A stretch of 64,000 bases of DNA from Flavobacteriales bacterium (GTDB taxonomy: Bacteria; Bacteroidota; Bacteroidia; UBA10329): the NCBI GenBank assembly GCA_016124845.1, contig WGMW01000033.1, positions 1 to 64,000 of the forward strand. Reading direction: 5' to 3'. Shown in pieces: positions 32,947 through 41,807 of this stretch. Positions within the stretch are counted from its first letter, which is position 1. Each line of letters starts with the position of its first letter. The position numbers and the translations under genes were made by a program. The notes beneath the pieces are model-generated. The model was not told the origin of the DNA. It searched no databases and saw only the letters and a program-made list of their open reading frames with translations.

Positions 32947-34995
32947 TTAAATCGTCAGCCCGATCAGGCTCACATCATCGATCTGTTCGCTTGGGCCTTT
33001 CCATTCCAGATAGAACGATTCCAGCGAATGAAGATCATTGTTTGCTACTGCTTGTAGCAGAACGTTGCGGAGCTTTCGGATGCCCAGCTTCTTATCATTC
33101 GGCCCACCGAACTGATCGGCATAGCCATCAGAAAACACAAAGAGCGTGTCGCCTTTTTCGAGCGTCAACTCATGGTCGGTGAACGGACCTGCGTCAAAGA
33201 ATCCACCGATGCTTCTGCGGTCGGCCTTCACCTCAAACACATTCCAGCCGTCCTGACCTTCTTTTAGCGTGCAGTTGGCAATCTCTGTTCGTTTGGAAAC
33301 GAGGAGGAGCGGATTGTGCGCACCTGCAAAGGTCAGCTGCTTTTGGTCTTTGGAAATGGCGAAAAGCGCAATGTCCATTCCATCGCGCACGCTGCCACCG
33401 CTCTTCTCAAACTGTTCCTCAATATGATCGCTCAGGCTTTGCAGAATCTCTGATGGTTTGGAAAGCTGGTTCTCACGTACGGCCTTGTTCAATCCTTGGT
33501 AGCCGACCATGCTCACCATCGCGCCAGGCACACCATGACCTGTGCAATCGGCCACGGCCACAAAGGTCTTTCCGTTGGCCTCTTCCAACCAGTAGAAATC
33601 TCCCGAAACGATATCCTTCGGTCGATAGAGAATGAAGTGTCGGTCGAATCTTCCTTCAAACGCTGCATGTTTGGGCAGAATGGCGTGCTGTAACTGTTGC
33701 GCGTAGCGGATGCTGTCCGTAATGTGCTCGTTCTTCTCTTCAATAACGGCCTTCTGTTCGGTGATCTCCGAATTCATCTTCTCCAGCAGTTCATTGTCGC
33801 GCTGCTTGCTGCGGTAATTGCTGAACAGCACGAAGAACAGGATCAGCGCCATCATCCCAATGCCGATGGAAGCATTGCTCAACTGGCGTTGTCTGTTCAG
33901 TTCTGCTTCGGCCAGTTCTTTCTGATGTGCAATTTCAGATTCGATGCGCATGCGCTCCTTCTCGTGTTCAAAACGCTGACGCAGCAGTGAGATGTCATTC
34001 TCCAGATTGTATCTGTGCACGCTATCCGTATAATTGAAATATTGCTGCCAGTACTGTTGTGCCTTTGCGCCATCCTTCAGTCCGATGTACGCATCTCCCA
34101 AACACTTGCATGACGGGCCTTCCCATTCCAACTGGTGTTGTTGCGAAAGCTCCAAAGCCTCTTGACAATATTTCTTGGCCTTGGAATACTGTTTCGTTGC
34201 CGCAGCATCTTGGCCAATGTTTCCCAGCACCATGGCCTCGCCCCAAGCGTTTTCCTTCTTGCTGTAAATGGCCAAGGCTGCCTGATAGAGCGAATCGGCC
34301 TTGGCGTACATGAATTGCTTGGATGCAATGGTGCCAAGGAGGTTGAGCGCCTGCGCCTGACCGAGTTCATTTCCATACTTCCTGCGTATCTCGAAACACT
34401 TTTGGGCGTACGAAGCGGCTTTCCCGTACTCAGCTTTCTTCTTGTAGATGAGGGCAACGTTGTTCCACGTGTTGCCCATCAATCTCGGAATGCTGAGTTT
34501 GGTAGCGATGTCCAGACATTGCAGATGGAAGTCCAAGGCTTTGTCGTCTTCGCCCTGCTCCTCGTAGAGAATACCGATGTTCCCAAGAATGGAACCCATC
34601 AATCCAGAATCTGGGATGCTCTTGGCCATTTCCAAGGCATTGAGGAAATGGTCAACTGCCGTGTTCTTATCGCCCAGCCCTTGGTAATTCAACCCAAGGT
34701 TGTTCAGCGAATAGGCGATGCCATCCTTGTAGTCGATTTGTTTGCGGATGTCAAGTGCCTTGCCATGGGCTTGAATGGCAGCAGAATAATCCGCCTTCAC
34801 CCAATTGGCGATGCCGATGACCTCAAACGCATTCGATCGGATTTGCTTGGAGGTGTCGGTTTCTATGACCTGCTCAGCCAGTTGAATGGCAGAGTCGGGA
34901 TAGAAATTCTGCACCGAAATGGCCTGTTGCAAAAGTGCATTCTGGCCAAGGCCGAAAAGGGGTAAAAGGCATAGAAAGGTCAACCATTTCTTCAC
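32947..34995 (-). CDS. TPR-membrane-SpoIIE serine phosphatase
   Basis: Signal/anchor MKKWLTFLCLLPLFGLGQ, then about seven TPR motifs (residues 20-330; for example AYSLNNLGLNYQGLGDKNTA, NTWNNVALIYKKKAEYGKAA), a coiled coil (ERMRIESEIAHQKELAEAEL), one membrane helix (IGIGMMALILFFVLFSNY) and a cytoplasmic PP2C/SpoIIE domain (DIVSGDFYWLEEANGKTFVAVADCTGHGVPGAMVSM with metal-binding aspartates). It should sense an extracytoplasmic signal through the TPRs and dephosphorylate a STAS antagonist, possibly the one at 18402. Divergent to the kinase at 35412. Confidence 0.9.
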   Translation of the reverse strand: MKKWLTFLCLLPLFGLGQNALLQQAISVQNFYPDSAIQLAEQVIETDTSKQIRSNAFEVIGIANWVKADYSAAIQAHGKALDIRKQIDYKDGIAYSLNNLGLNYQGLGDKNTAVDHFLNALEMAKSIPDSGLMGSILGNIGILYEEQGEDDKALDFHLQCLDIATKLSIPRLMGNTWNNVALIYKKKAEYGKAASYAQKCFEIRRKYGNELGQAQALNLLGTIASKQFMYAKADSLYQAALAIYSKKENAWGEAMVLGNIGQDAAATKQYSKAKKYCQEALELSQQHQLEWEGPSCKCLGDAYIGLKDGAKAQQYWQQYFNYTDSVHRYNLENDISLLRQRFEHEKERMRIESEIAHQKELAEAELNRQRQLSNASIGIGMMALILFFVLFSNYRSKQRDNELLEKMNSEITEQKAVIEEKNEHITDSIRYAQQLQHAILPKHAAFEGRFDRHFILYRPKDIVSGDFYWLEEANGKTFVAVADCTGHGVPGAMVSMVGYQGLNKAVRENQLSKPSEILQSLSDHIEEQFEKSGGSVRDGMDIALFAISKDQKQLTFAGAHNPLLLVSKRTEIANCTLKEGQDGWNVFEVKADRRSIGGFFDAGPFTDHELTLEKGDTLFVFSDGYADQFGGPNDKKLGIRKLRNVLLQAVANNDLHSLESFYLEWKGPSEQIDDVSLIGLTI

Positions 34996-35054: not shown

Positions 35055-35322
35055 GGTTATTGAGTTATTGGTTATTTTAAGGTCACGCCATAATAACCCA
35101 AAACGATTATCCCCAAAGTGACCCTGAACTATTCAGTTGGGGAATTGGTACGCTGAATACGGATGACTCAATAACTAATAACAGCCAAACCAAGGAAGCA
35201 TCTCACATCTCTTGAGATTCCTCACTCGCTCGGAATGACAGAACCATCGGACTCTGCCTCATACATAACGCTTCGATAGCTCTGCGTACGATCATCTCCC
35301 AATAACGAATAACTCAATAACC
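35055..35322. repeat. Inverted repeat in the SpoIIE-kinase divergent spacer
   Basis: The 416-bp spacer 34996-35411 holds no gene. GGTTATTGAGTTATT (35055-35069) is exactly inverted as AATAACTCAATAACC (35308-35322), 238 bp apart, and a related copy lies near 35166. A CTCGGAATGACA-type dispersed repeat is at about 35200-35246. Upstream of the kinase is the LytTR box described separately. Confidence 0.55.
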
Positions 35323-35337
35323 GATTAGCGATGCTTG

Positions 35338-35366
35338 CACTTATTACCGTATCTATTACAGTTATT
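35338..35366 (+). promoter_or_regulatory. LytTR-type operator upstream of the kinase gene
   Basis: CACTTATT (35338-35345) and CAGTTATT (35359-35366) are direct repeats exactly 21 bp apart. The same pair occurs at 38048 and 40053. LytTR regulators bind paired 9-bp direct repeats about two helical turns apart. A possible -7 element TAATTCTG follows at 35391. Confidence 0.65.
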
Positions 35367-35411
35367 ACGCGTAAGCGCATCCGCAACCTCTAATTCTGCA
35401 ACTTCAAGTTG

Positions 35412-37319
35412 ATGATCCGCCACCTACGAATGTCATCGGTCTTGGCCATTGGCCTGTGTCTGATATTGGTTCAGACAGCTTTCTCTCAGCATTCGGCTGC
35501 TGTGGGCGACACGGTCGTTTGCCGTTTGTACATGGATTCTACCACGGCCTATTCGCATCGGTATGATGCCAATGATTCGCTCCGCTATTTTGCCAATAAG
35601 GTGTTGGAATGCACCGAGGCTTCAGGCCAATGGAATGAACACATGGATGCGCTTACGGTGGTTGGGGTCACTTATCTGCGTGAAAGCAACTATACGGAGG
35701 CATTGAAGTATTTCAAGCAAGCAGAGGATGAGTGCAGACTCATAAGCGATTCGCTCAATCTGGCCAAGGTTTACATTAACATCGGCAGTTGCTACCAAAG
35801 TATGGACAGTAGTGCCAAGGCGATGGAGATTCTGATGTCATCGGCCGCTATTCTGGAACATTACAACGATTCGGCACATCTACTTTATGTATACACCAAT
35901 ATCGGGGCATTGCTGGGCACTATCGGCCGTCATGATGAGCAATTGGAATTCAGCAAGAAGGCGTTTGACATGGCAGGAGGGAAGTTGAACAGTCGCATTG
36001 CGCTTGGGTTGGGATCCAATCTTTCCATCAATCTGCTTAAACACAATATGATTGATTCGTCAGAGGCATTGGCATTGCGCGTGCTGGCAGAGAGCAGAAA
36101 GATCAACTACAGCAAAACGCTTACGCAGATACTGAATCACCTGGCCAATATTTCGCTCAAGAAAGAGGAGTATGAACGGGCGCTGAAATACACCGATGAA
36201 GTGCTGACCTACGAGGGTTCATTCACACACAACCATACTTTCACGGATGCTTACAATTATCAAGGTGCAGCATTGCTTCGGCTGAACCGTGTGGATGAGG
36301 CGATCAACAGTCTGGAAAAGGCATGGGAATATGCAGGTGCAGAGAATACGGTCATATCGAAGGAGCGCGTACTGCGGAACTTGCAGAAGGCTTACGCCAT
36401 GCACGGTGATTATAAGAAGGCGTATGAGAACATGGAACTCCTGAAGCTTTATACCGACACACTGCTGCGGGAGGATAACGTGCGCATAGTGAATGAGCTT
36501 GAGACCAAGTATCAGACCGAGAAAAAGGAGCAGCAGGTACGTGAACTGAGCCAGCAGAATGAGATTAATGAACTGAAACTGCGACAGCGAAATATCTGGA
36601 TCATTGTACTTGTGGTGGTAGCGTTGCTGGTTGCGGGCAGCATCTATTTCGTTTCGCGGCAGCGATTGCTGAAACAACAGCAGGAAGCATTGGAGAACCG
36701 ATTGCTGTCGTTGCGCGTACAGTTGAATCCGCACTTTATTTTCAATGCGTTGACGGCCGTTCAGAACTACATGTTAGGAGGAAAAGACCTGCGCGAGGCC
36801 GTTCGGTATCTGTCCAATTTCGCCAAAGTGATGCGTGCATTCTTGGAGTACAATCAGGAGGAGAAGATCACGCTCGATAAGGAACTGAACGCGCTCGAAC
36901 TCTACGTGGGAATTCAGAAACTGCGTTTCAATAATGGTTTCGAGTTCGATGTGGAGATGGATGAAGAGCTTGACCCTGAGGAAGTTCTGGTGCCACCCAT
37001 GATATTGCAACCGCTCATCGAAAATGCCATTGAACATGGGATCAGGAATCTCGATAATGGAAAGATCACGCTCAAATATGAGTTGCAGGATGACCATTTG
37101 GTGATGCGGTTGACAGATAACGGCATTGGTCGGAAAAAGGCGGGAGAGAGCAGTCCGAAGTCGGAAGAGAAAACATCGCTTGCAACCAGAATCACGAAAG
37201 AGCGTATTGCTTTACTGAACCGAAAGGCAGAAGGAAAGTATTCGCTGGAGATCCGTGATCTGAATGAAGATGGAACGGGAACGGAAGTGATATTCAAAAT
37301 TCCATTTGTGCTGGCATGA
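35412..37319 (+). CDS. TPR-containing LytS-type sensor histidine kinase
   Basis: Starts at ATG 35412 with a signal anchor (LAIGLCLILVQTAFSQ). TPR-like repeats span residues 60-350 (EALKYFKQAEDECR, YNYQGAALLRLNRVDEAINS). A coiled coil, one membrane helix (WIIVLVVVALLVAGSIYFV) and a His_kinase (PF06580 type) domain follow, with the phospho-acceptor in LNPHFIFNALTAVQNYM near residue 440 and N-box LIENAIEHGI. G-box residues near the end are GIGRKKA and GTGTEVIF. The regulator ATG overlaps its TGA by 4 bp. It should phosphorylate that regulator. Confidence 0.93.
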   Translation: MIRHLRMSSVLAIGLCLILVQTAFSQHSAAVGDTVVCRLYMDSTTAYSHRYDANDSLRYFANKVLECTEASGQWNEHMDALTVVGVTYLRESNYTEALKYFKQAEDECRLISDSLNLAKVYINIGSCYQSMDSSAKAMEILMSSAAILEHYNDSAHLLYVYTNIGALLGTIGRHDEQLEFSKKAFDMAGGKLNSRIALGLGSNLSINLLKHNMIDSSEALALRVLAESRKINYSKTLTQILNHLANISLKKEEYERALKYTDEVLTYEGSFTHNHTFTDAYNYQGAALLRLNRVDEAINSLEKAWEYAGAENTVISKERVLRNLQKAYAMHGDYKKAYENMELLKLYTDTLLREDNVRIVNELETKYQTEKKEQQVRELSQQNEINELKLRQRNIWIIVLVVVALLVAGSIYFVSRQRLLKQQQEALENRLLSLRVQLNPHFIFNALTAVQNYMLGGKDLREAVRYLSNFAKVMRAFLEYNQEEKITLDKELNALELYVGIQKLRFNNGFEFDVEMDEELDPEEVLVPPMILQPLIENAIEHGIRNLDNGKITLKYELQDDHLVMRLTDNGIGRKKAGESSPKSEEKTSLATRITKERIALLNRKAEGKYSLEIRDLNEDGTGTEVIFKIPFVLA

Positions 37320-38041
37320 GGGCAGTAATTGTAGATGATGAACAGAATGTACGGGAGGCGCTGAGAGCCTTATTGCACTTGTATTCGCCAGAAACGGAGG
37401 TGGTCGGAGAGGCGGATTCTGTCGCCTCCGCGCTTACCGAAATAGAACAGCAACAGCCAGAACTGCTCTTTTTAGATGTAGAGATGGGAGATGGCACGGG
37501 CTTCGACCTGCTCAAGCAGTTGCCCGACCGCGATTTCGAGGTCATCTTCGTTACCGCGCATCAGCATTATGCCATCAAGGCCATTCGCATGAGTGCTTGC
37601 GATTTTCTGTTGAAACCCGTGGATCCTGACGATCTGGTGGCAGCCATCGAACGGGCACACCTCAACCTACGGAAACACGGTGGCGATCCTATTGATGTGA
37701 TGCTTCAGCACGCATCGGGTATCAAGGACCGCATGGTGCTCAAGGATCTGGAGAATATTTATGTATTGAAGATCGATGATATTGTCCATTGCGAAGCAGA
37801 CGGTCGCTACACAAGGTTTCATGTAAAAGGGCAGGAGAAACCGATTCTGGTGTCCACCAATCTCAAGGAATACGAGGTACTTCTATCTCCATCAGGTTTT
37901 GTGCGTATCCACCATTCTCACCTTATCAATCTCAATCACATTCAGCGCATTGATAAGGTCAATCTTACGGTTCATCTGAGTGCCGACCAGAAGGTTCCGA
38001 TCTCGGTCCGTAAGAAGGATGAGTTGCTGAAACGCCTCTGA
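37316..38041 (+). CDS. LytTR-family response regulator
   Basis: Receiver domain with acidic pocket D7-D8 and phospho-acceptor D54 (LLFLDVEMGDGTGFD), T/K switch residues FVTAHQHYAIKAIRM and FLLKPVD. The C-terminal LytTR DNA-binding domain (about residues 140-241) has EADGRYTRFHV, LSPSGFVRIHHSHLINLNHI. It is paired with the upstream kinase. Its likely targets in this window are the three 21-bp-spaced boxes before the kinase gene and the two T9SS genes that follow, so autoregulation is expected. Confidence 0.94.
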   Translation: MRAVIVDDEQNVREALRALLHLYSPETEVVGEADSVASALTEIEQQQPELLFLDVEMGDGTGFDLLKQLPDRDFEVIFVTAHQHYAIKAIRMSACDFLLKPVDPDDLVAAIERAHLNLRKHGGDPIDVMLQHASGIKDRMVLKDLENIYVLKIDDIVHCEADGRYTRFHVKGQEKPILVSTNLKEYEVLLSPSGFVRIHHSHLINLNHIQRIDKVNLTVHLSADQKVPISVRKKDELLKRL

Positions 38042-38047
38042 GCGAAA

Positions 38048-38076
38048 CACTTATTACAGGTACATCAACGGTTGTT
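38048..38076 (+). promoter_or_regulatory. LytTR-type operator upstream of the LamG T9SS gene
   Basis: CACTTATT (38048-38055) and CGGTTGTT (38069-38076) are 21 bp apart. TACACTTG at 38109-38116 is a candidate -7 element, 32 bp after the box. The downstream ATG is at 38147. Confidence 0.65.
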
Positions 38077-38146
38077 GAAGTCCGCCCGATCGGGTTGGAC
38101 AATGGGGGTACACTTGTGTCATACTAATCCCCTAAATCAACACATT

Positions 38147-39961
38147 ATGAAAAAACACGTACCCTTTTTATTGAGCCTTTTAAGCGTTATGGCCCTACTG
38201 GCATGGGCGGCCACGGTCAGAGCGCAATGTTCACAAGAGAAAGTGCTTCTAAACCTTCCGCTCAATGGAAACCTTACAGATATCTCGGCCTATGCGCATA
38301 CAGTGAATGCAGTTGGAAATCCGTTGTATGCCAATGGCTATGATAATACAGTTCAAGGAGCCATTGGGCTTGGGACAGGTAAGCGACTCACAATTCCTGC
38401 CGCACCTGAGTTTTTGGATATGGATGATGCTTTTACCATTTCGGCTTGGATCAATGCCAGCTCGCTGGATTCTTACAATTCGGTAGTAACCAAATTGAAC
38501 GGTAGCCATCGCGATATTGACCTACGTATCCATTTCGATGGAAAGATGCAGATTCATTTTACCAATTCCTCCAGCGGAATTACTGCCGTTACCAGCGATG
38601 TGCCTGTCATTACAACGGGTACATGGTATCATGTGGCTGCAACTTGGGACGGAAACACCATGAAGCTTTTTGTAAATGGTGTTTCTGTGAAGGAAATGGT
38701 GCTTTCAGAAGGGCCTGACTTTCAATCAAGCGGTGATGTAACGGTCGGAGCACTCGGTACTTCAGAAACCTTCAATGGTTATTTCGACAATATCCTGATT
38801 CGTGCGTACGCGACCCCCGATGATGAGATTGCCTGTCTGATGAATTCGTTTGTGCCGGCAACTAACGGTGTTGTTATAGAACTCCCTCTTGATGGAGGTT
38901 CAGCGACCGATATTTCTGCCAACGGAAACAACGGCACGCCCCATTCAGCAACGGCCGTTGTAGATAGGTTCGGCAGTACTGGAGGTGCCATGCGCTTCAA
39001 TGGGCTTGCGAGCTATGTAGTGGTGCCATATACAAGCGCCTATGCCAACCTCGGACAGGAATTCACCATTTCGGCATGGGTTCTTGGAGGCAATGCCCCA
39101 GGATTCACCCATACCATCGTAAGTAAGACCTATAGTGGACGGGACATCGTTCTACATATCGAGAACGGGGTGCTTTCTGCCCATTATTATGTAAACGGAT
39201 ATACTTGGTGTACCGCGCCATCAGCAACATTCAACGGTGGGGGCTGGAGCCATGTGGCATGTACTTGGGACGGCATATCCATGACCATCTATCAGGATGG
39301 CAATATTCTACAGACAATTACACCTGCAACTCCTCCGTCATTCTCAACCGCTCCATGGGTGGTCGGTGCGCTTACTTCTTCCGGTGGGGAGTATTTTGAT
39401 GGTGATATTGATGAGGTGAAGGTCTGGGATAGGGCTCTTTCACTATGCGAACTGCGTTCGGATATTGTAGCGAATATCGACCTTGTTTCTGAGGATAACC
39501 TGATGATGTGCGCTGGCCAGACACAGACGGTTACTGCAACAAGCATGTGTACATACCTCTGGACGGCCGATAACAGCACTTCCGATTCATTTGTGATTGA
39601 TGCAGACAATCTTGGTGCGGGTGACCATGCCATTGTGCTGGAAGCATACGATATGTACGATAACTTCTACAGCGATACTGTTCATGTGAACGTGTCACTT
39701 TGCACAGGAATTGAAGAACAGGAAAACTCAAATACCATGAAATTGATGCCAAATCCAGCGAGCAGCGTTGTGACAGTTTCTGCCACCGATCTTGCCGAAA
39801 TTCAATTGATGGATGTGAGTGGAAGGATCATCCAGCAAATTGCGGTGGTCGGTTCCAAAGAAACCAACATCGACATCTCATACCTTCCCGCAGGAATCTA
39901 TCTGGTAAGTGCAAAAAGCACAAACGGTACTGTAAATGTTGAACGCTTGATGAAGCGGTAG
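38147..39961 (+). CDS. T9SS surface protein with two LamG/concanavalin-like domains
   Basis: ATG at 38147 opens the signal peptide MKKHVPFLLSLLSVMALLAW...VRAQ. Two laminin-G-like domains follow: about residues 28-230 (LNLPLNGNLTDISAYAHTVN, FTISAWINASSLDSY, WYHVAATWDGNTMKLFVNG) and 245-440 (IELPLDGGSATDISANGNNG, WSHVACTWDGISMTIYQDG). A PKD-like beta segment precedes the T9SS C-terminal domain (LMPNPASSVVTVSATDLAEI). It probably binds glycans or acts as an adhesin. The last 278 bp, including the terminator, are nearly identical to the end of the next gene. Confidence 0.9.
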   Translation: MKKHVPFLLSLLSVMALLAWAATVRAQCSQEKVLLNLPLNGNLTDISAYAHTVNAVGNPLYANGYDNTVQGAIGLGTGKRLTIPAAPEFLDMDDAFTISAWINASSLDSYNSVVTKLNGSHRDIDLRIHFDGKMQIHFTNSSSGITAVTSDVPVITTGTWYHVAATWDGNTMKLFVNGVSVKEMVLSEGPDFQSSGDVTVGALGTSETFNGYFDNILIRAYATPDDEIACLMNSFVPATNGVVIELPLDGGSATDISANGNNGTPHSATAVVDRFGSTGGAMRFNGLASYVVVPYTSAYANLGQEFTISAWVLGGNAPGFTHTIVSKTYSGRDIVLHIENGVLSAHYYVNGYTWCTAPSATFNGGGWSHVACTWDGISMTIYQDGNILQTITPATPPSFSTAPWVVGALTSSGGEYFDGDIDEVKVWDRALSLCELRSDIVANIDLVSEDNLMMCAGQTQTVTATSMCTYLWTADNSTSDSFVIDADNLGAGDHAIVLEAYDMYDNFYSDTVHVNVSLCTGIEEQENSNTMKLMPNPASSVVTVSATDLAEIQLMDVSGRIIQQIAVVGSKETNIDISYLPAGIYLVSAKSTNGTVNVERLMKR

Positions 39962-39983
39962 TGCTTTATCATTGTAGGTGGAT

Positions 39984-40016
39984 GGGGTCCTTTGGCAAAG
40001 CCGAAGGGCCCTTTTT
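39984..40016 (+). terminator. Terminator of the LamG T9SS gene
   Basis: GGGGTCCTTTGGC-AAA-GCCGAAGGGCCC forms a long stem with small mismatches and a five-T tail. A near-identical copy ends the next gene (41777-41807). Confidence 0.88.
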
Positions 40017-40052
40017 GTTAGTTAGAATGAGTCTTTAGGTTCAAGGGGCAGT

Positions 40053-40081
40053 CACTTATTACATCTACATCGACAGTTATT
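40053..40081 (+). promoter_or_regulatory. LytTR-type operator upstream of the beta-helix T9SS gene
   Basis: CACTTATT (40053-40060) and CAGTTATT (40074-40081) are 21 bp apart. TAATCTTG at 40113-40120 is a -7 candidate 31 bp after the box, matching the layout at 38048. Confidence 0.68.
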
Positions 40082-40146
40082 CATCCCAGACCGAATGGCA
40101 GAGTGTAGTGGGTAATCTTGTAATGGATTCTAAAAATTTATGCAAC

Positions 40147-41754
40147 ATGAAGAAATCTATATCAGTATTAAAAATTATTTCAATCGTAACTATTTTGTTG
40201 AATTGTATTTCAACTGTTCGCGCTCAGGTAGTTGCGAACACAAATGACTCTGGGGCAGGGTCGTTGCGTGACGAAATTTCACAGGCTTCCTCTGGAGATA
40301 CCATAACCTTTGCTCCAAATTTGGAAGGTGCAACCATTATGACAAGTTCTACCATTACCATCAGTTCGGACATCGTCATCATAGGTTTTCCAGATGGTGA
40401 TGCGGTCACGGTCGATGCCAATAATAGCTGCCGCATTTTTAGTGTGCTGAATACGGGTTCTGCCACATTCTACGGAGTGGATTTTGTCCGAGGATTTGTT
40501 TCTACTGGTGGAGCGTTTCTGAACAGCGGAATGCTCGAACTGAACTATTGCAGACTGTACAACAACACAGCAGATATTCAGTCACTGAATCAGGGTGGAG
40601 GAGCCATTTTCAATAACACAAATGCTACGTTGACCCTGAACCATTGTGAACTGTTCAATAATGGAGCCATGCCAGCAGGACCTATCGGTGATGGTTTTGC
40701 GGGTGCTGTCTATAATCGGGGAGCGGAAATGAATGTGAACTACTGTAGTTTTTACGATAACATGGTTTCTACTGGTCAGCAATCGGCCTATGGTGGGGCC
40801 ATTTATAGTACTGCGACATTGAATATCCGTTCATCCACGTTTTCTGGAAATGAATGCATAGGTGGGAATGGTGGGGCCATTTTCTCTGGCTCAGGTTCAA
40901 CGCTGAACATTTCCAATTCAACGTTGTCCGACAACGAATCCCAAGGTAGCGGAGACAATATCTGGAACGCAGGAAGCCTGTCACTTTACAACACCATTGT
41001 TGCTAATGCAGTGGCCAACATTCATACAGACAACATTGGTACCGCAGTCAGTCTCGGGAACAATATTCTTGAAAACAGTTCGGGTTCAAACATTACGTTA
41101 TTAACTTCGGATCTGACGGTTGATCCAATGCTGGATACATTGGCTTATAACGGTCATTCATTCACCAAAACACGTGCCTTGAAATGTTCAAGTCCAGCTA
41201 TTGATGCAGGGAACTCCGTCAATGCTCCAGTAGAGGACCAAGCAGGAAAGGTACGAGTGGTGGGCAGTAGTATTGACATCGGTGCTTACGAACTACAGGA
41301 TCCACCGACCATTGTCCAAAATGGCCTCACACTTTCAATTCCTGAACAGGGATATTTTCAATGGTATAATGGCCCGACAGCTATTTCTGGTGCCACGGAT
41401 TCCAGTTATACGGTTACATCAAATGGTAGCTATCACGTTGACTTCTTAGATGTGTCGGGTTGCCCACTCAGTTCGAATATGGTTTCGATAATTACGGTGG
41501 GAATAACTGAAAGTGATAACCAAGTCGCGATGAAACTCAAGCCAAATCCAGCCAGCCGCATTGTAACGGTTTCTGCCACCGATCTTGCCGAAATTCAACT
41601 AATGGATGTGAGTGGAAGGATCATCCAGCAAATTGCGGTGGTCGGTTCCAAGGAAACCAACATCGACATCTCACACCTTCCCGCAGGAATCTATCTGGTA
41701 AGCGCGAAAAGCACAAACGGAAATGTAAGGGTTGAACGCTTGATGAAGCGGTAA
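40147..41754 (+). CDS. T9SS surface protein with right-handed parallel beta-helix
   Basis: ATG at 40147 gives the signal peptide ending VRAQ; an upstream GTG (40108) would add 13 residues. The N-terminus VVANTNDSGAGSLRDEISQA and the repeating GGAIFNNTNATLTLNHCELF, GGAIYSTATLNIRSSTFSGN, GGAIFSGSGSTLNISNSTLS show a beta-helix of the choice-of-anchor/polymorphic outer-membrane type. The segment ending SIDIGAYELQ closes it. The T9SS C-terminal domain shares almost all residues with the upstream gene. Likely a surface adhesin or polysaccharide-active protein under the same LytTR control. Confidence 0.9.
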   Translation: MKKSISVLKIISIVTILLNCISTVRAQVVANTNDSGAGSLRDEISQASSGDTITFAPNLEGATIMTSSTITISSDIVIIGFPDGDAVTVDANNSCRIFSVLNTGSATFYGVDFVRGFVSTGGAFLNSGMLELNYCRLYNNTADIQSLNQGGGAIFNNTNATLTLNHCELFNNGAMPAGPIGDGFAGAVYNRGAEMNVNYCSFYDNMVSTGQQSAYGGAIYSTATLNIRSSTFSGNECIGGNGGAIFSGSGSTLNISNSTLSDNESQGSGDNIWNAGSLSLYNTIVANAVANIHTDNIGTAVSLGNNILENSSGSNITLLTSDLTVDPMLDTLAYNGHSFTKTRALKCSSPAIDAGNSVNAPVEDQAGKVRVVGSSIDIGAYELQDPPTIVQNGLTLSIPEQGYFQWYNGPTAISGATDSSYTVTSNGSYHVDFLDVSGCPLSSNMVSIITVGITESDNQVAMKLKPNPASRIVTVSATDLAEIQLMDVSGRIIQQIAVVGSKETNIDISHLPAGIYLVSAKSTNGNVRVERLMKR

Positions 41755-41776
41755 TGCTTTGTCCTTGTAGGTGGAT

Positions 41777-41807
41777 GGGGTCCTTTGGCAATGCCGAAGG
41801 GCCCTTT
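41777..41807 (+). terminator. Terminator shared by converging genes
   Basis: GGGGTCCTTTGGC-AAT-GCCGAAGGGCCC with T-rich flank, a duplicate of 39984-40016. It lies between the convergent T9SS genes ending at 41754 and 41816. Confidence 0.85.

Follow-up and report, generated by a model that had tools for sequence, protein, structure and literature searches.

LytTR sites in general consist of repeats of 9–11 nt with spacers of 11–13 nt (PMC4847170). Published sites are 9-bp direct repeats resembling ACCACTTAT with a 12-bp gap, which are located about 10 bp before the −35, and a published example repeat, ACCACTTAT-12-ACCGCTTAT, is found mostly 10 bp before a −35 (PMC6193735). The HdrRM / BrsRM LRS of Streptococcus mutans and relatives (PMC6193735) have a LytTR regulator and pairs of direct repeats resembling ACCACTTAT at a distance of 21 bp, which lie just upstream of the promoters of the own operon and of neighbouring targets. 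The locus described here shares these features as well as the distance between repeats and the −10/−7 element. An LRS operon, however, encodes a LytTR regulator together with a membrane inhibitor. The operon analysed here falls outside this class, as it encodes a LytS-type kinase and a regulator with a receiver domain; it also differs in its Bacteroidota promoters and its putative T9SS cargo targets. In Escherichia coli, YpdA/YpdB and BtsS/BtsR (YehU/YehT) likewise combine a LytS-type kinase and a LytTR response regulator with a direct-repeat site, and YpdB-yhjX is a precedent for a regulon of one target (PMC4847170). Our locus is distinguished from these systems by its TPR sensor, by other site letters and by other predicted targets, which adjoin the regulator gene, and its operon is also preceded by a box. 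In the LRS-like operons of Bacteroides thetaiotaomicron and B. ovatus, direct repeats of 11 bp precede a Bacteroidota −7 element (TATCTTTG) of the operon itself, a layout much like that of our cargo promoters, but these operons encode a membrane-bound LytTR regulator and an NfeD/DUF2154 protein without a kinase, the letters of their repeats are TCCGGTATTCA, and no T9SS cargo has been reported (PMC6193735). PorXY-SigP of Porphyromonas gingivalis is described as a two-component system tied to type IX secretion in Bacteroidota (PMC4800418) that acts on genes of the secretion machine via an ECF sigma factor, whereas single cargo genes and LytTR repeats are concerned here. The literature searched contained neither a binding site nor a target for a kinase-linked LytTR regulator in Bacteroidota, no tie of such a regulator to T9SS cargo and no recurring module of LytSR, box and T9SS cargo.

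The locus is part of a window of 64,000 nt (positions 1 to 64,000 of contig WGMW01000033.1). A gene for a TPR sensor kinase of the LytS type (35412..37319, + strand; Pfam His_kinase PF06580 and HATPase, phospho-acceptor motif NPHFIFN present) adjoins a gene for a response regulator with receiver and LytTR DNA-binding domain (37316..38041, +; Pfam Response_reg 3.9e-24, LytTR 1.5e-19). With both proteins matching Pfam above cut-off, the pair has the composition of a LytS/LytTR two-component system. The same strand encodes a LamG-domain protein (38147..39961; Laminin_G_3 3.9e-48, Por_Secre_tail 3.9e-11, TIGR04183 above cut-off) and a choice-of-anchor-Q, probably beta-helix, protein (40147..41754; NF041518 6.7e-17 and TIGR04183, above cut-offs). 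Both carry a C-terminal type A sorting domain (PF18962 / TIGR04183) above the curated cut-off, which identifies them as T9SS cargo. Between the two cargo genes a terminator-like hairpin was identified (39984..40012, +; 13-pair stem and T tract; 1 vs 0.1 in shuffles). In agreement with the preliminary description, 37316 is the start of the only LytTR regulator gene nearby: the genome encodes four LytTR domains in total, and the three other LytTR proteins are all located elsewhere. The match of one of these regulators (G000:C42:28861-29595) runs across an in-frame TGA and may therefore represent a decayed gene or two frames. The divergent neighbour of the kinase gene (32947-34995, − strand) encodes a TPR protein with a SpoIIE-type phosphatase domain, and no box was found before this gene. 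Over 265 bp, positions 39737-40001 and 41530-41794 are 91.7% identical, covering the DNA of the LamG and beta-helix T9SS sorting domains and about 40 nt downstream. Judged by its sequence, this sorting cassette is a recent local duplication or conversion onto unrelated N-terminal parts.

A pattern search of the window revealed CACTTATT-N13-CRGTTRTT with 0 mismatches at 35338-35366 (box 1), 38048-38076 (box 2) and 40053-40081 (box 3), all on the + strand. As had been proposed, these boxes precede the genes for the LytS-type kinase and for the LamG and beta-helix T9SS proteins, and all three are intergenic. The boxes had been called identical, which has to be corrected, since the spacers and the second units differ among the three. 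Between the end of box 1 and the ATG of the kinase gene (35412) there are 45 nt; this box precedes the kinase-regulator operon, and AC follows each of its units (CACTTATTAC ... CAGTTATTAC). The intergenic region immediately before this box is flanked by the arms of a 22-nt inverted repeat (35055-35076 / 35301-35322), which are 224 nt apart and 95% complementary. Box 2 starts 6 nt past the stop codon of the regulator gene and ends 70 nt before the ATG of the LamG gene (38147), while box 3 follows the terminator-like hairpin and ends 65 nt before the ATG of the beta-helix gene (40147).

The repeat unit is ACACTTATTAC, with 21 bp from start to start. In relatives both units mostly consist of one and the same word, and the boxes are thus a true direct repeat of ACACTTATTAC. 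The 9-mer repeats and the 12-nt spacer correspond to the definition of LytS/LytTR sites (PMC4847170), and in letters, spacing and promoter distance the ACACTTATTAC repeat is near the published LytTR sites. When the window was scanned with the published consensus at 21 bp, the three boxes ranked best; counts at other spacings were similar, so that the count itself is not unusual across spacings and the scan is weak on its own.

Pattern and model searches were applied for genome-wide scans. In 4.36 Mb on 65 contigs the three boxes were the sole matches with 0 mismatches. Allowing up to 3 mismatches in the whole genome gave 132 matches versus 220 for a reversed-pattern control; in view of this lack of an excess of near matches, the motif is not a scattered one. 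A refined pattern, CRCTTRTTAC-N10-ACRSTTRTT, had 3 matches in the genome and 0 in the control. A regulon beyond the locus was considered and rejected: the near matches showed no excess, and the inspected two-mismatch sites of congeners were located in or beside unrelated coding sequence.

TACACTTG (38109..38116, +), 32 nt past box 2, is the putative −7 of the LamG gene, and the same word occurs at the same distance in congener G004. For the beta-helix gene the putative −7 element TAATCTTG (40113..40120, +) lies 31 nt past box 3, which confirms the distance of 31–32 bp given in the preliminary description. No −33 element was evident by eye at the LamG and beta-helix promoters. Since 31–32 nt separate the end of the site from a −7 element of the Bacteroidota type, and the site occupies the place of a missing −33 element, the regulator probably activates both cargo genes. 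No recognisable −7 follows box 1 at the distance seen for boxes 2 and 3. In four congeners GAAATTTA is present exactly 31 nt past the kinase box, with the ATG at 41–45 nt, and this word may be a weak −7 of an almost leaderless mRNA or may belong to the translation-start context. The predicted autoregulation is well supported by the site upstream of the kinase gene, and box 1, conserved in five species, has its counterpart in LRS, whose operons are also preceded by direct repeats.

The feedback could also be negative, with the regulator repressing its own kinase operon from a box that overlaps the kinase core promoter and activating the cargo genes. This arrangement would fit the short distance of only 45 nt between kinase box and ATG and the lack of a consensus −7 at 31–32 nt past the box, and in some congeners unit 2 of the kinase box itself resembles a −7 (G005: TACACTTG). 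On the other hand, the GAAATTTA word of the four congeners stands where the cargo genes have their −7 elements, and LytTR operons with upstream repeats were positively autoregulated where tested (PMC6193735). We consider repression of the kinase operon a less likely alternative to its activation.

The genus allowed the conservation of the boxes in relatives to be assessed. The kinase box is present in all five species that have the kinase and the LamG box in two of two loci (box 2 also occurs in the G004 locus, L066:9209), while the surrounding DNA has diverged. Around the kinase box, mean pairwise identity amounts to 96% in one unit and 88% in the other, drops to 63% in the spacer and is 29% over the 60 nt upstream. 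A box lies upstream of the kinase gene in each of G002, G004, G005 and G006. The G006 regulator gene is partial at a contig end, and G002 has the start of the kinase gene at a contig end. The regulator orthologues of G004 and G005 are 82% identical. G004 has a LamG orthologue with its own box; G005 has the regulator and the kinase box without a LamG neighbour, which indicates that targets vary. A second, paralogous system of G004 (L067; gene order T9SS gene, kinase, regulator, LamG gene; regulator 48% identical) carries three 21-bp-spaced units (ACGCCTATTCC, ACACCTTTTCC, ACAGTTGTAC) before its T9SS gene at L067 5021-5073 (G004:C9).

The presence of a box tracks the kinase-regulator locus, being found in five of five genus genomes with the locus and in none of the four without it. 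Over 395 genomes of the class the refined pattern yielded 7 exact matches, all at the kinase-LytTR locus of five species of the genus; the four congeners without the locus had none. A sequence model applied to nine genomes recovered eight sites with E values from 1.2e-6 to 1.3e-4, the next best match having 0.075; as the model was built from these same eight sites, its meaningful result is the gap to the remaining matches. A PWM derived only from the three sites of this genome ranked the congener box first in four of four congener loci.

Confinement to the locus and conservation in related bacteria make it very probable that the boxes are the binding site of the regulator encoded at 37316. Binding of the boxes by another regulator or a sigma factor is improbable in our judgement: the three further LytTR proteins of the genome could in principle bind, but the sites occur solely at this locus and solely in congeners that have it, their spacing and letters are LytTR-like, and LytTR genes of other families are likewise accompanied by 21-bp repeats. 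That the boxes are mere copies of one locally duplicated stretch and have no regulatory meaning is very unlikely given their conservation. Local duplication does occur here in the cargo sorting-domain DNA, but the duplicated block stops short of the boxes, the box flanks are unrelated, and in other species the boxes are kept at fixed promoter distances against diverged flanks.

Outside the genus, the closest regulators of other families (about 40–48% identity) provided 40 loci, which were scanned for pairs of the half-site CACTTATTA at spacings from 10 to 40. With 7/9 matches per unit, 28 pairs were found at 21 bp versus 1–7 at every other spacing; with 8/9 matches per unit there were 8 pairs at 21 bp and none at other spacings. 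Control DNA from the same group of genomes (20 stretches, 400 kb) showed no such peak. The pairs concentrate within 60 nt past the stop codon of the regulator gene or just before the regulator gene, and loci with a box beside the regulator gene belong to five families. The half-site was picked after a few of the same loci had been seen, a bias against which the other spacings, the control DNA and a motif-free test guard. In this last test, covering 160 nt past the stop codon, 21-bp repeats were present in 11 of the 40 loci and any other spacing in at most 3. L155 and L156, both among these 11, have a different half-site, ACGAATTTYC: their 21-bp direct repeats ACGAATTTCC and CGAATTTTCA lie in the first 60 nt past the regulator stop, so that the geometry is kept and the letters differ. 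Besides the boxes after the regulator gene, L154, L158 and L160 have further boxes of the CACTTATTA type in the interval from kinase to regulator gene, some 100 nt ahead of the regulator start. With regulators of 35–41% identity (L072-L083) the genus PWM gave no clear sites.

A T9SS cargo gene is the next gene in 11 of the 40 distant loci, and LamG proteins recur (L151, L152). Box and T9SS cargo co-occur in 7 of 9 boxed loci versus 4 of 31 others (Fisher p=0.0005, a naive value from few families), an association that is only suggestive because the boxed loci come from few families. LytTR regulators of this similarity are common, being present in 98 of the 395 class genomes. We lean, by a modest margin, towards a recurring Bacteroidota module in which a LytS-type kinase and a LytTR regulator would control an adjacent T9SS-exported surface protein via 21-bp-spaced boxes directly after the regulator gene, often also before the operon. 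In such modules the half-site letters would change from regulator to regulator but the 21-bp geometry would not, so that the class would contain many private switches, each for one cargo.

The circuit suggested in the preliminary description is thus supported as a very local regulon, by a motif confined to the locus, conserved boxes, a LytTR-like repeat and a 21-bp peak in distant loci. The boxes are very probably operators of the 37316 regulator in a neighbours-only circuit of its own operon and the one or two T9SS cargo genes next to it. The mechanism is of a known kind, namely LytTR direct-repeat control. A signal would act through the TPR sensor kinase, whose TPR part is presumably periplasmic, and phosphotransfer would lead from the kinase to the regulator. 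Two regulator molecules would then bind the two ACACTTATTAC-like half-sites on the same DNA face, 21 bp or two turns apart. The phosphorylated regulator would activate the genes for the LamG and beta-helix T9SS-secreted surface proteins, and through the kinase box the kinase-regulator operon would control itself.

The boxes would thus mark a small self-contained switch for surface proteins. For a kinase-linked LytTR regulator, the analysis describes a site by its letters, its spacing and its placement relative to the promoter. It also offers a route to the sites of related regulators, which may be sought as a 21-bp direct repeat just past the gene of each regulator, and it yields a hypothesis, open to test, for the switching of individual T9SS surface proteins.
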